Assembly (NCBI GenBank): GCA_025360125.1
Contig: JANYCU010000027.1
Location: forward strand, 62,001-126,000
Length of the DNA: 64,000 nucleotides
Reading direction: 5' to 3'
Source of the DNA: Armatimonadota bacterium
GTDB lineage: Bacteria > Armatimonadota > Fimbriimonadia > Fimbriimonadales > Fimbriimonadaceae
Part shown: in pieces, positions 55,494-62,523 of the stretch
How positions within the stretch are numbered: the first letter of the stretch is position 1
Layout: every line of letters starts with the position of its first letter
Notes under the pieces: model-generated
Database searches by the model: none
The model's input: only the letters and a program-made list of their open reading frames with translations
Told to the model about the DNA's origin: nothing
Translations under genes and position numbers: made by a program

Positions 55494-55539
55494 ACTAGCT
55501 ATTCATTCGCCCAGCTATTGATCAGCCAACAATTTTGAA
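55474..55539 (-). pseudogene. Duplicate of the 3' end of the hexosaminidase gene, with heptamers
   Basis: On the minus strand it reads FQNCWLINSWANE and a stop, against HDQANWWLINSWANE for the intact gene ending at 55674. On the plus strand the copy reads CCAAACTCCAAACTAG and then about 40 bp of homology, the intact locus CCAAACTACAAACTAT and the same. The CTCCAAA-type heptamers flank both. The remnant ends where the unknown gene begins. Confidence 0.6.
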
Positions 55540-55673: not shown

Positions 55674-57236
55674 TCACTCATTCGCCCAGCTATTAATCAA
55701 CCACCAATTCGCCTGGTCGTGCGGAACGAACTTCGGATGGATCAATGTCTCAAACGAAGGCGTGTAACCAAGCGTCCCATTGCCATACTGCTTGATCCGA
55801 AAGATCACGTCCTCCACATGCTTCTTCGCCGCGCGACACCGAAATGCATCCGCCTGCGATCCGCACGAATTGATATGGGTTGCCTTCGCAATCTTCTCCA
55901 ATTCGTCAAAAATCTGGCGAATCGGTGACAGAAATGTAATCGCCTCGCCAAACTTTCCTTCGGCATAGGCCGCGCTCGCTTTCTCGACTTGGAGCAGAAA
56001 CTCGATCGACTTAATGATCAACTGACAGACACCCCGCTGGTCCGAATCCTTCGTAAACATTTGCGCCCGCTCCGCAAGTTCCATTGCTCCGCCGGGGCCG
56101 CTCAAAATACTCGGCCCGTTGCGCAGCCAAAGTAAAAACGGATTGCTATACAGGAACATCCGGCTCTTTATCGCTGATCGAATTCCGGTAAACGCCCACT
56201 CGCCGCCCAATTTTTGCAACTCGCAACCCATCAGCCGAGCCCACTCTTCGTCCGTCTCGCCATGCTTTAAGAATGACTTCAAAAATAACTCGGCGGTTTC
56301 GGCTTTCGCGTAAATTGCAATGTCCTCTGCCAGGGTCCCGTTCTCCAGTGGATATCCCCGGTCCTTCTCCGGCGCGGCGTTGGCCAGAATCTGGCCGCTC
56401 GCTTCGATGCACGGCAAGATCGTGTTGTAACAGCCAAACAACCCACATTCCCACGTCGTAACGCAGACACCTTCGACATCTAATCGAGCGGCGGCCTCGG
56501 CATGTTCGCGAACATTCAGCTCGCTCTGCGGCAAGTGGCACCAAATCGAGTTGTAGGTGAAAATCGTTGGACAAAAGACCGTCCGAAATCCTCGATCTCG
56601 AAAGAGCTTGGAGGTGTGCTCGGGCGACTTGAAGTACTGCCAGTCGAAGACGATCGTCTCTTTCGGCATCGAATCCAGCGCCGCTGGATGCTCATGGTAC
56701 ATGTCGCCCCACACGCCAGGAGTGCGCCCCTTATCAACAACATATTGAGCCAGCGGACCAAAGTGTTCGGCGTAAACCTTCGCCTTCTCCTCGTCGGTCT
56801 TCCCTAGTTGCTGAGTCTCGTCTCCGCCGACATGGATAAGATTACTTCTGAAAATCTGTACCGTATCGTCAATCAACCGACGGCACAATGTCTGAAAATC
56901 AGCGTTCTCCGGATCGGCTTGCATCCCTTTGAACCTATCTTTGGCCAATCCTGTCCCCTCTTGAGTGTAAAGAAATCCTTCGAAATGCCCCAGCAAATTG
57001 ATGAATGGAACGATTTGAAGAGTCGGAAATTCAATTTGCAGAGCCTCAATCACATCGGGCGTGAGAACTTCTTTCCCGGCCACCCAAGGAGCGGAAGGAT
57101 ACGCAAACCGATGCTCCAAATACAGCCCAATCGCGTTGTAGCCATTGTCAAGCGACAACTTACACAAAGCACGCAGGTACTGCAAATCCGGACACTGCTC
57201 CCGAGCAATATCGTACGTCCACATGCGGAGGTTCAT
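55674..57236 (-). CDS. Glycoside hydrolase of the GH20 (beta-N-acetylhexosaminidase) type
   Basis: 520 aa, cytoplasmic (no signal). TIM-barrel landmarks: FPTLQIVPFINLLGHFEGFL, and the catalytic pair Asp139-Glu140 in NLIHVGGDETQQLGK; the Asp orients the substrate acetamido group and the Glu is acid/base. Later PGVWGDMYHEHPAALD and VEGVCVTTWECGLFGCYNTI. The N-terminal carbohydrate-binding domain of many GH20 enzymes is absent, and the C-terminal 170 residues are helical. Probably frees N-acetylhexosamine from chitin or peptidoglycan fragments. Start ATG has TACCCT 7 nt upstream. Confidence 0.83.
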   Translation of the reverse strand: MNLRMWTYDIAREQCPDLQYLRALCKLSLDNGYNAIGLYLEHRFAYPSAPWVAGKEVLTPDVIEALQIEFPTLQIVPFINLLGHFEGFLYTQEGTGLAKDRFKGMQADPENADFQTLCRRLIDDTVQIFRSNLIHVGGDETQQLGKTDEEKAKVYAEHFGPLAQYVVDKGRTPGVWGDMYHEHPAALDSMPKETIVFDWQYFKSPEHTSKLFRDRGFRTVFCPTIFTYNSIWCHLPQSELNVREHAEAAARLDVEGVCVTTWECGLFGCYNTILPCIEASGQILANAAPEKDRGYPLENGTLAEDIAIYAKAETAELFLKSFLKHGETDEEWARLMGCELQKLGGEWAFTGIRSAIKSRMFLYSNPFLLWLRNGPSILSGPGGAMELAERAQMFTKDSDQRGVCQLIIKSIEFLLQVEKASAAYAEGKFGEAITFLSPIRQIFDELEKIAKATHINSCGSQADAFRCRAAKKHVEDVIFRIKQYGNGTLGYTPSFETLIHPKFVPHDQANWWLINSWANE

Positions 57237-57243
57237 TGGGATA

Positions 57244-57249
57244 AGGGTA
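57244..57249 (-). promoter_or_regulatory. TACCCT -10-like hexamer before the hexosaminidase
   Basis: GGTACCCT on the minus strand, 7 nt before the ATG at 57236. Confidence 0.5.
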
Positions 57250-57260
57250 CCGTCTTATGT

Positions 57261-57320
57261 GGAGTGCGCCAATTTATTGGCGCTTTGTCCTGCGAGATTT
57301 ATCTCGCTGCAATTCGCTCT
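57261..57320. repeat. Hairpin repeat element, copy A
   Basis: GGAGTGCGC scaffold, stem 1 GCGCCAAT-tt-ATTGGCGC (57266-57283), linker TTTGTCCT, stem 2 GCGAGAT-tt-ATCTCGC (57292-57307). Same order and loop length as the copy at 62145, but with different paired bases in the stems. Lies in the gap between hemW and the hexosaminidase gene. Confidence 0.65.
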
Positions 57321-57342
57321 TCTGCTGACGACCTAGTCGTGC

Positions 57343-58446
57343 CTAAATCAACTCCAACGCCACTTCACTGCAGAAATGCCGCCCCTCCGATGTTAACTTC
57401 AGTCGCTCACCATCCGCCGAAACCCAACCTCGCTCAACCAACATCGGAATCTTCTGCCCATCCGCGATCCCAAGCGGAATCCCCTCGTTCAACCGGAGCC
57501 CTAACATAATCCGCTCAGTATTCCGAATTCCCGGCGACAAAACCTCCGATTCGAACGGAATTGCTGTTCCGGCCTCGACCGCTCGGCAGTACCCGTCTGG
57601 ATGCTTCAAATTCGTGTACCGTGTCGAGACGCCGCCGATCGTCACGCAACCAACCGCCCCCGGACCGTAGCCCACATAGTCCTCGCCGTACCAATAGCAA
57701 AGGTTGTGGCGACACTCATATCCAGGCCGGGAAAAATTCGAAATCTCATACTGGAACAACCCAATCTCCGCCGTCCGCGCCACGCATTCGTCGTACATTT
57801 CGCGCTGAATCTCGTCTTCAGGCAAGTCCAACTCGCCGCGCAAATTCTTCTTGTAAAACGCAGTGTTCGGCTCGATAGTTAAGCAGTACAGGCTCAAATG
57901 CTCGGGCTGCAACGAAAGCGCTTTCGACAAATTCTTGGTCCAGGCCACCCGACTCTGCGACGGCAAAGCAAACATCAAATCAAGGTTCAGGCTCGTAAAA
58001 CCTGCTTCGCGAGCCGCGCCTACTGCCCGCTCGATCTCGCTCGCCTTATGGATCCGATCGAGCCGAATCAAATCCTCATCGAGAAAACTCTGGGCACCCA
58101 GCGATATCCGATTGAACCCCGCTGCGAACATGGCCGAGAACTTCTCCGAATCGACCGTCCCCGGGTTCGCCTCACTCGTGATCTCGCACCCGTCGATCGG
58201 CGGATGAACTTCCATGACCGCGTCCAAAATCCGGATCAACTGAGATGAGGAGAGGTAAGTCGGCGTTCCTCCACCAAAGAAAATCGTCTTGGCCGAGGTT
58301 CCTCGCAAGGGCGACTGCTTAATCTCGCGCACAATCGCCGCGACCGTCCGCTCGACAATCTCCCCTGTCATCGCATAGCTATTGAAATCGCAATAGCCAC
58401 ACTTGCTCGGGCAAAAAGGCGTGTGAACGTAAATCGCAAGAGGCAT
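57343..58446 (-). CDS. hemW: HemW-like radical SAM protein
   Basis: 367 aa. Radical SAM cluster motif CPSKCGYC (Cys12, Cys16, Cys19) in YVHTPFCPSKCGYCDF, FFGGGTPTYLSSSQL, GCEITSEANPGTVDSEK and NRISLGAQSF. C-terminal HemN_C-like domain with RLNEGIPLGIADGQ and the wing segment LKLTSEGRHFCSE. HemW is a heme chaperone, close in sequence to oxygen-independent coproporphyrinogen III oxidase HemN. The early start with no extra N-terminal segment and the missing HemN-specific extension favour HemW. TACCCT lies 7 nt before the ATG. Confidence 0.87.
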   Translation of the reverse strand: MPLAIYVHTPFCPSKCGYCDFNSYAMTGEIVERTVAAIVREIKQSPLRGTSAKTIFFGGGTPTYLSSSQLIRILDAVMEVHPPIDGCEITSEANPGTVDSEKFSAMFAAGFNRISLGAQSFLDEDLIRLDRIHKASEIERAVGAAREAGFTSLNLDLMFALPSQSRVAWTKNLSKALSLQPEHLSLYCLTIEPNTAFYKKNLRGELDLPEDEIQREMYDECVARTAEIGLFQYEISNFSRPGYECRHNLCYWYGEDYVGYGPGAVGCVTIGGVSTRYTNLKHPDGYCRAVEAGTAIPFESEVLSPGIRNTERIMLGLRLNEGIPLGIADGQKIPMLVERGWVSADGERLKLTSEGRHFCSEVALELI

Positions 58447-60025: not shown

Positions 60026-60934
60026 CTACTTAATCTTCCAAGGCTCTTCTTGGTTCAGCCAAGACTGCAAAAACTTCCCAACCTTGCCCAGTGACTGCGC
60101 GCTGCACTTGTCCGGAGTATCCGACAAAGTGTGCCAAGGATCGTACGAAAAGTCAATGAAGTCAACGGTCGGAATTCCGTGCTCGTTCATCGTCAAATGG
60201 TCATCCAAAATCTCACCTTGAAGCTTCATCGGGAAGGTCTTCTCCATCCCAATTGACTTCGCATGGCGATAAAGACCAAGCGTCAATTTCTCGGCTTTGT
60301 GATAGCTGTTGGGTTCAATCGGAATCTCCAGGTCGGCATCACCGATCATATCCAGCAGAATGCCGTACTGCGGCTTCTTGGCTGGCTGGTGCTTCGCAAA
60401 ATAATCGGCACCGAGGAACATTTCATCGAGGCCTGGGCCAAGGTCCTCACCGTCAACAAAAAGATAGCAAATTCCGAGTGACTTAGGAACACTCTTGGTG
60501 TGCCGCATGAGTTCAAGCAGAACCGCAGTGCCAGATGCCCCGTCGTTGGCACCAGGAATTGGCTTCTTCCGGTTAGCTTCGTCAGATTCTTGGTCTGCAC
60601 TCGGCCGAGTATCCCAGTGTGTTAGCAAAACGACGCGGGTGGTCGCCGTATCCCAGTTTTGGTAGCCGATGACGTTCCACATCTTGCGAGTGGATCCATC
60701 TTGGCTCCACTTGTGGGTAAATGGTTGAAGCTCGGCGGTATCACAGCGCTTCTTAACTTCTTCAAAAATGAGGTCGCGACACTTCACGTGAGGAGCCGTG
60801 TTCGGCACCCGGGGACCAAAATCGCATTGCTTGGTTAGCCAGGCCCACGAAGCTTTTTGATCGAAACTATTGTCTGTGGGCGCCGCCGTTTGAAAGGAAA
60901 GTGCCAGGGCTAAAGCGATTGTCGTGAAAGCCAT
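60026..60934 (-). CDS. M28-family exported enzyme, glutaminyl-peptide cyclotransferase-like
   Basis: 302 aa with signal peptide (TTIALALALSFQTAAP). Zn/M28 fold: LLTHWDTRPSADQES, PIPGANDGASGTAVLLEL, LFVDGEDLG, LLDMIGDADL and DPWHTLSDTPDKC. The first metal ligand group is WDTRP with Asp in place of the HxD pair of dimetal peptidases, the pattern of single-zinc glutaminyl cyclases. The enzyme would cyclise N-terminal Gln of exported peptides; peptidase activity is the alternative. Its start lies within the 3' end of the next gene upstream (25-nt overlap). Confidence 0.8.
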   Translation of the reverse strand: MAFTTIALALALSFQTAAPTDNSFDQKASWAWLTKQCDFGPRVPNTAPHVKCRDLIFEEVKKRCDTAELQPFTHKWSQDGSTRKMWNVIGYQNWDTATTRVVLLTHWDTRPSADQESDEANRKKPIPGANDGASGTAVLLELMRHTKSVPKSLGICYLFVDGEDLGPGLDEMFLGADYFAKHQPAKKPQYGILLDMIGDADLEIPIEPNSYHKAEKLTLGLYRHAKSIGMEKTFPMKLQGEILDDHLTMNEHGIPTVDFIDFSYDPWHTLSDTPDKCSAQSLGKVGKFLQSWLNQEEPWKIK

Positions 60935-62121: not shown

Positions 62122-62523
62122 CTAGTTACCGAAACCATATTTGGGAGTGCGCGAACCTGTTCGCGCTTTGGCCTGGAGGAACGAAGTTCCCAGAGCCTGC
62201 TTCGCTGAACTATGGAAGCTACTTGCGTCCCAAATCGCTTCGCGGGATTCTTCGCCACTCCCGCAGAACCCGACGACTACAACGAACATCACCATCGGAA
62301 CCATACAACCAATAAATGCCAAGTCAAATAAACAGCCGATTCCTTCCCAAAATGAGTTCGACTCGTACCATCGGTTGTCGTAATAGTTCGGTTTGTTGTC
62401 TTGCTTCTTATCTCGCCCGTCCATCGTAAACGAAGGTACTAGCCCCCAAGATCTTTGGTTGCAACATCGAGAATTTATTTTGATTTCATCAACCGACGCC
62501 CCGCAATTCGAGCAATTGGCCAT
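62122..62523 (-). CDS. Small membrane protein with zinc-ribbon start; 3' end lies in a repeat element
   Basis: 133 aa. N-terminal CSNCGASVD and SRCCNQ (Cys pairs, zinc-ribbon-like), a polar stretch, and one membrane helix LAFIGCMVPMVMFVVVVGFC. The last 40 or so residues (ASSFHSSAKQALGTSFLQAK onwards) are encoded by the hairpin repeat at 62143-62230 and have no protein logic. So the original stop was probably lost when the element arrived. Function unknown. Confidence 0.55.
   Translation of the reverse strand: MANCSNCGASVDEIKINSRCCNQRSWGLVPSFTMDGRDKKQDNKPNYYDNRWYESNSFWEGIGCLFDLAFIGCMVPMVMFVVVVGFCGSGEESREAIWDASSFHSSAKQALGTSFLQAKARTGSRTPKYGFGN
62143..62210. repeat. Hairpin repeat element, copy B
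   Basis: GGGAGTGCGC scaffold, stem 1 GCGCGAAC-ct-GTTCGCGC (62149-62166), linker TTTGGCCTG, stem 2 GGAAC-gaa-GTTCC (62178-62190) plus flanking pairs. Same plan as the copy at 57261. It overlaps the 3' end of the small membrane protein gene. Confidence 0.65.

Follow-up and report, generated by a model that had tools for sequence, protein, structure and literature searches.

A GGAG-footed, two-hairpin family of probable REP elements with RAYT genes between inverted copies in an Armatimonadota genome

Two hairpin elements in the window

The window, the whole stretch of 64,000 nucleotides that was analysed, comes from the 4.13 Mb draft genome (58 contigs) of a Fimbriimonas-type member of the Armatimonadota. 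Two copies of a short hairpin element, A and B, lie in it on the forward strand (Table 1). Copy A occupies an intergenic gap between a GH20-like gene and a hemW-like gene. A small ORF (62122-62523, minus strand) has copy B as its 3' end. The 133-residue product of this ORF begins like a zinc ribbon and has a single membrane segment, and its C-terminal tail would be encoded by the element read in reverse. The GH20-like gene has its final codons and stop duplicated in a 32-base direct repeat (91%; 55503-55534 and 55678-55709, spaced 175 bp), which looks like the remnant of a duplicated gene end.

Copies A and B share a scaffold, consisting of GGAGTGCG, a hairpin, CGCTTTG(T/G)CCTG and then a second structure, for which 0.00 chance occurrences are expected from shuffled versions of the window. 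Their first stems differ in sequence, GCGCCAAT/ATTGGCGC in copy A versus GCGCGAAC/GTTCGCGC in copy B, and both are perfectly paired, as a first-pass annotation of this DNA had observed. That annotation began the second element at 62143; the element is indeed present there, with its true start at 62144. The second stems, in contrast, do not correspond to each other: hairpin 2 is short in copy A, and in copy B it takes a longer form that includes an additional hairpin, GGAAC-GAA-GTTCC.

Table 1. Features of copies A and B (positions in the window)
Feature	Position	Strand	Remarks
Intergenic gap holding copy A	57237..57342	.	Between GH20-like gene (55674-57236, -) and hemW-like gene (57343-58446, -)
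Copy A 5' flank TATGT	57256..57260	+	Conserved subfamily mark, accompanies TTTA/CTTG loops
Copy A, whole element	57261..57309	+	
Copy A foot GGAG and spacer T	57261..57265	+	(Near-)invariant in family alignments; conserved beside RAYT genes of relatives
Copy A hairpin 1, GCGCCAAT-TT-ATTGGCGC	57266..57283	+	
Copy A linker TTTGTCCTG	57284..57292	+	
Copy A hairpin 2 (CGAGAT-TT-ATCTCG) and terminal CTG	57293..57309	+	Element end
Copy B, whole element	62144..62207	+	
Copy B foot GGAG and T	62144..62148	+	
Copy B hairpin 1, GCGCGAAC-CT-GTTCGCGC	62149..62166	+	CCTG loop class
Copy B linker TTTGGCCTG	62167..62175	+	
Copy B hairpin 2, long form (GAGGAACGAAGTTCCCAGAGCCTGCTTCGCTG)	62176..62207	+	Same form in 17 copies

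Copy number and anatomy of the family

The first-pass annotation had called for a genome scan and had named two outcomes that would count against it, namely that only these two copies exist or that most other copies break the pairing. The genome holds about 75 copies, so the first does not apply. Genome-wide, the scaffold reads GGAGT-hairpin 1-TTTG(G/T)CCTG-hairpin 2-CTG. The exact pattern has 41 matches in the genome against 0 for a reversed control, and a covariance model built on 29 distinct copies identifies 72 sites at E < 0.01. A stem-agnostic pattern (GGAGTGCN5YYTRN5GCTTT, one mismatch permitted) has 74 matches, compared with 3 for its reversed control. Because this last pattern demands no pairing at five inner positions, it is a fair test of the second outcome, which does not apply either: all five inner pairs are Watson-Crick in 62 of the 74 matches, versus a mean of 7.7 and a maximum of 18 after the arms are shuffled. 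Over the same matches, 358 of 370 inner-pair cells are paired.

The foot GGAG, located 1 nt from the hairpin, shows little or no variation across the family alignments. Hairpin 1 keeps its basal G-C and C-G pairs and is variable above them; hairpin 2 is variable at all six pairs. The long form of hairpin 2, in which the outer 5' arm is replaced by GAGGAACGAAGTTCCCAG, was found in 17 of 73 parsed copies, copy B included. It occurs with both of the loop classes described below, which suggests exchange between element halves.

A third hairpin lies just 5' of the GGAG foot in 14 copies (such as those at loci L008, L010, L024, L035 and L037). It reads TCTTT-GATCGC-GAA-GCGATC-CTTT, with the stem variants GTGCC/GGCAC, GATGGC/GCCATC and GTCCGC/GCGGAC; it covaries as well and is nearly restricted to the CCTG loop class. 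Extra, partly degraded copies were seen at the edge of detection (G000 C25:100349-100442, a close pair, and C37:97233 and C39:16658).

Covariation of the stems

An alignment of 39 distinct two-hairpin copies has 98.9% of its cells paired, and both sides change at 12 of the 14 pairs. Double-sided changes fill 128 cells versus 37 in shuffles, and 0 of 500 shuffles attain 128, figures that are not probabilities because the shuffle control ignores relatedness. Controls in which the partner is slid by 1-3 columns do retain relatedness, and in these the covariation signal is lost. By both comparisons, the covariation that had been proposed from two copies is real and strong across the family. Its attribution to selection on the hairpin is the likely explanation, but correction by template switching could also yield such a pattern.

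Template switching is known to correct imperfect palindromes. Within a hairpin, it would copy a change in one arm into the other arm, and the covariation would then be a mutational by-product. This explanation predicts covariation in any long-lived palindrome, in keeping with the observation that single and doublet copies are both about 97% paired. However, half-changed stems with one wobble or unpaired position recur in the genome (GCGTCGA/TCGGCGC and GCGGCAA/TTGGCGC, three times each). Since these have persisted and been copied, correction by template switching is not instant. Moreover, the foot and the linker are conserved though they are not palindromic. We therefore consider a purely mutational origin rather unlikely. 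The process could act alongside selection by the RAYT proteins (REP-associated tyrosine transposases) described below, and it would not replace the identification of the hairpins as REP elements (repetitive extragenic palindromes).

Genomic placement

The element is almost wholly extragenic. With genes called by a simple codon-based method that had been trained on the window, 72 of 75 copies (about 96%) are intergenic, in a genome that is about 92% coding; the three gene-overlapping copies fall only in weakly scored ORFs, one of which is the ORF at copy B. Many copies begin no more than about 30 bp after a stop codon, and 23 of the 75 are located between convergent genes.

Positions shortly after the 3' ends of genes would suit functional RNA elements, such as small RNAs, terminators or 3'-end stabilisers, with pairing kept by selection on the RNA, and a passage in PMC3733652 mentions the hypothesis that REPs have a secondary role in transcription termination or mRNA stabilisation. 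We nevertheless judge this explanation very unlikely. Neither the window nor six loci bearing the element gave an Rfam match at the gathering threshold, and the sole sub-threshold match between the two copies, RT-19 at 60101, overlaps neither. Neither hairpin is followed by a T-tract. Non-Watson-Crick pairs (T-G 4 and G-T 1, versus C-A 1 and A-C 1) display no decisive strand bias. Both gene orientations occur around the copies, and an RNA function leaves the inverted pairs around RAYT genes unexplained. Given the lack of an Rfam match and of a clear strand preference among wobble pairs, a small-RNA role is not needed.

Other candidates were set aside on their anatomy: an integron attC site (no attC-type ends), a CRISPR (no array) and an ordinary terminator (no T-tract).

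We found no clean empty site with identical flanks among the regions compared, which included the region upstream of rplK and the hemW-GH20 gap. In the congeneric genome G024 the hemW-GH20 gap has no copy, and the rest of the gap is not alignable by eye. The region upstream of rplK has no element in relatives; gene content beyond the rplK leader differs in them, so that this is not a clean empty site.

RAYT genes between inverted copies

The genome has 22 Y1_Tnp matches. Six RAYT genes form a single clade; five are intact, and the sixth, C56:6000-6520, is split between frames (alignment A3 comprises five of the six). All six are bracketed by a pair of inverted element copies, 623-658 bp apart, whose feet face outward. 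Proteins of the clade start near WPHAPS, bear the motifs NHYH and YVHNNP, and end in DDF. Their best NCBIfam match is NF047646 REP_Tyr_transpos, REP-associated tyrosine transposase (E 6e-19), at 68 bits versus a cut-off of 80. With Pfam PF01797 (Y1_Tnp), one of two RAYTs tested scored above gathering (29.5), and the other reached 22.8 versus 23. The sole PDB match is E. coli TnpAREP, 4er8 (E 8e-5), in which the Tyr motif is aligned. Judging from these Y1_Tnp, NCBIfam and PDB matches, the clade proteins, with their HUH and Tyr motifs, appear to be nearer to TnpAREP than to IS200 TnpA.

The RAYT belongs to the Y1 HUH proteins and has IS200/IS605 TnpA as a relative, and several IS200-like TnpAs are present in the genome. 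The copies might on these grounds be taken as the termini of an ordinary IS200/IS605 insertion sequence that has decayed, or of its MITE, rather than as REPs. We regard this as very unlikely. A single hairpin unit, in inverted orientation, flanks the RAYT genes on both sides, but terminal inverted repeats are lacking in known IS200/IS605 members (PMC2817692); the IS200 NCBIfam model scores 22.5 versus a cut-off of 55 bits, below the score of the REP transposase model; and single copies outnumber doublets.

The other Y1 transposases of the genome (G000 L041-L048 and L063-L068) include IS200-like GGVxDHVH types and other RAYT-like groups. They have no adjacent element except at C42:42700, where a copy lies some 300 bp from the gene. 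No RAYT was found in the plasmids searched.

Single units and inverted pairs

Inverted pairs account for 26 of 74 copies, in the six RAYT units and in seven close doublets (78-122 bp apart), and the remaining 48 are single. Singlets are as intact as doublets (paired cells, 96.7% versus 96.9%). Most doublets combine one arm with the linker TTTG(G/T)CCTG and one arm with TTTCA-(A/G)CTG. The TTTG(G/T)CCTG type makes up 46 of 47 singles, compared with 17 versus 9 among the arms in pairs (p = 2.4e-4). Random leftovers of doublets would be expected to show both arm types. The predominance of one type among the singles suggests, from these small numbers, that the two-hairpin unit may spread by itself. 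The family does not conform to the definition of a REPIN, in which the inverted doublet replicates and the singlets are decayed: close doublets number only seven, and 48 of 74 copies are intact singlets.

Two subfamilies and two RAYT lineages

Loop sequence and 5' flank divide the family in two. Copies with a CCTG loop have the flank (T/C)T(G/T) in 34 of 37 cases, and those with a CTTG or TTTA loop have T(G/A)T in 26 of 29, an association (34:3 versus 3:26, p = 6e-12) that leaves out two unclassified copies. The RAYTs beside CCTG copies and those beside YTTR copies fall into separate clades (supports 96/94 and 100/99), and both lineages include members from another species. Stems vary inside each loop class, so that what accompanies a RAYT lineage is the loop and foot flank, not the stem. 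A RAYT may thus read the loop and the foot flank.

These observations lead us to a tentative proposal, which we hold with less than even confidence. The single GGAG-H1-linker-H2 may be the mobile unit itself and not a decayed half-doublet, and the two RAYT lineages in one cell may each keep their own set of elements by foot flank and loop (CCTG with TTTG versus YTTR with TATGT), with the stem sequence ignored.

Distribution in relatives and beyond

Among 85 genomes of the host's family, 22 have the RAYT clade (E <= 1e-12), 14 have elements (model R1, E <= 0.001) and 10 have both (Fisher p = 1.1e-4). Twelve genomes thus carry the RAYT clade without R1 matches at E <= 0.001, and four have R1 matches without the RAYT. 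In relatives, nearly all RAYT genes of the clade are accompanied by hairpins with a GGAGT or GGACT foot and a TTT after the hairpin, present on both sides at 19 loci. The stems and loops of these hairpins vary between genomes. At the gene flanks of a diverged clade member, L148, no GGAGT/GGACT hairpin was found. The congeneric genome G010 has a cluster of elements beside a RAYT (G010:C23:53460-55325), with three in direct repeat 198 bp apart; some of the RAYT-flanking copies in this cluster have a GGACT foot.

At low copy, the scaffold was also found in assemblies of Acidobacteria, Planctomycetota, Chloroflexi and Thioalkalivibrio. The Chloroflexi assembly encodes two RAYTs of the clade (E 5e-53), and none was found in the scaffold-bearing Planctomycetota and Thioalkalivibrio assemblies.

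Identity and proposed mechanism

Copies A and B are very probably REP elements of a GGAG-footed family served by a clade of RAYTs, which are Y1/HUH nucleases. As expected for REPs, the element is a short, multi-copy, extragenic palindrome, and a RAYT gene lies between two inverted copies both in the six units of this genome and among the 19 both-sided loci across genomes. The tetranucleotide GT(A/G)G, located 0-2 nt 5' of the hairpin and a defining feature of most described REPs, is absent and the foot is instead GGAG. For TnpAREP subclass 2.6 and class 3, other feet are admitted (PMC6006769); thus a strict GT(A/G)G definition fails here and the REP-like role stands. The first-pass annotation had set these hairpins apart from simple REP units. 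That distinction falls away because the hairpins are, with the high probability stated above, REP elements themselves, having REP anatomy and RAYT genes within inverted pairs.

The RAYTs of the same genome most likely recognise and move the element. From the known biochemistry of TnpAREP, the hairpin would fold in single-stranded DNA, such as that of the lagging strand. The RAYT would then bind the foot, the basal G-C pairs and the loop, cut at a nearby dinucleotide (a candidate is the conserved CT that follows hairpin 1), and rejoin the cut piece elsewhere. With fold, foot and loop read instead of the stem letters, the stems could drift freely as long as they remain paired, and covariation would follow.

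Comparison with known REP/RAYT systems

Descriptions of REPs and RAYTs go back to 2010 and include a gene set between inverted copies and palindromes that are preserved, "suggesting selection for complementary mutations" (PMC2817692). Conserved pairing is for this reason not itself new. RAYT-specific REP classes are known as well (PMC3686654), and the TnpAREP proteins of S. maltophilia and E. coli recognise the fold, the foot and single-stranded features (PMC8266576).

The family resembles the REP/REPIN-RAYT systems of Stenotrophomonas and Pseudomonas (PMC2817692, PMC3686654, PMC3116915) in its short intergenic palindrome with a fixed 5' foot, its inverted doublets, the RAYT between inverted copies, the complementary changes, and RAYT lineages that have their own REP classes. 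It differs from them in that the foot is GGAG-T where theirs is GT(A/G)G, the unit comprises two hairpins joined by a fixed linker (plus a third hairpin in 14 copies), and a single genome encodes six RAYT genes of one clade. In P. fluorescens SBW25, singlets are described as defunct or decayed remnants (PMC3116915), whereas here intact single units dominate. Among the TnpAREP subclasses listed in PMC6006769, subclass 2.8 of the Cyanobacteria is the closest match by motif (NHYH, W then Y, and the Y-H-x-N-P type), but its tyrosine motif is YIHYNP, rather than YVHNNP, and GT(A/G)G feet are reported for it. Atypical flanking structures without a GT(A/G)G foot also occur with subclass 2.6 and class 3 (PMC6006769); unlike the clade described here, these two have the HUH motifs NH(L/I/V)H and NHVH, with the foot CnGA in class 3, and occur in other phyla. 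The GTAG- and CGTC-tagged palindromic repeats (PMC3733652) share with this family the existence of sub-families with alternative complementary stem residues, described there for GTAG families, but their tags are GTAG or CGTC and no GGAG family is described there.

No mention of a GGAG foot was found in the open-access REP/RAYT papers searched, including PMC2817692, PMC3733652, PMC8266576 and PMC3686654. Among the matches listed, an open-access text search for the scaffold letters gave unrelated papers only, and no description of a REP system of this type in the host's bacterial group was found in the open-access literature. Relative to described REPs, the distinguishing features are the GGAG foot, the two-hairpin unit, the majority of intact singlets, nearly all of one arm type, the RAYT motifs, and two RAYT lineages matching two loop/flank subfamilies. 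The family would thus carry the REP/RAYT system into the Armatimonadota, in a form with a GGAG foot and two hairpins, and it would speak against regarding every single REP as a dead remnant. With two lineages and two element classes in one genome, in which the stems have drifted and the foot, loop and basal pairs have been kept, it also provides a natural experiment on the features that a RAYT reads.
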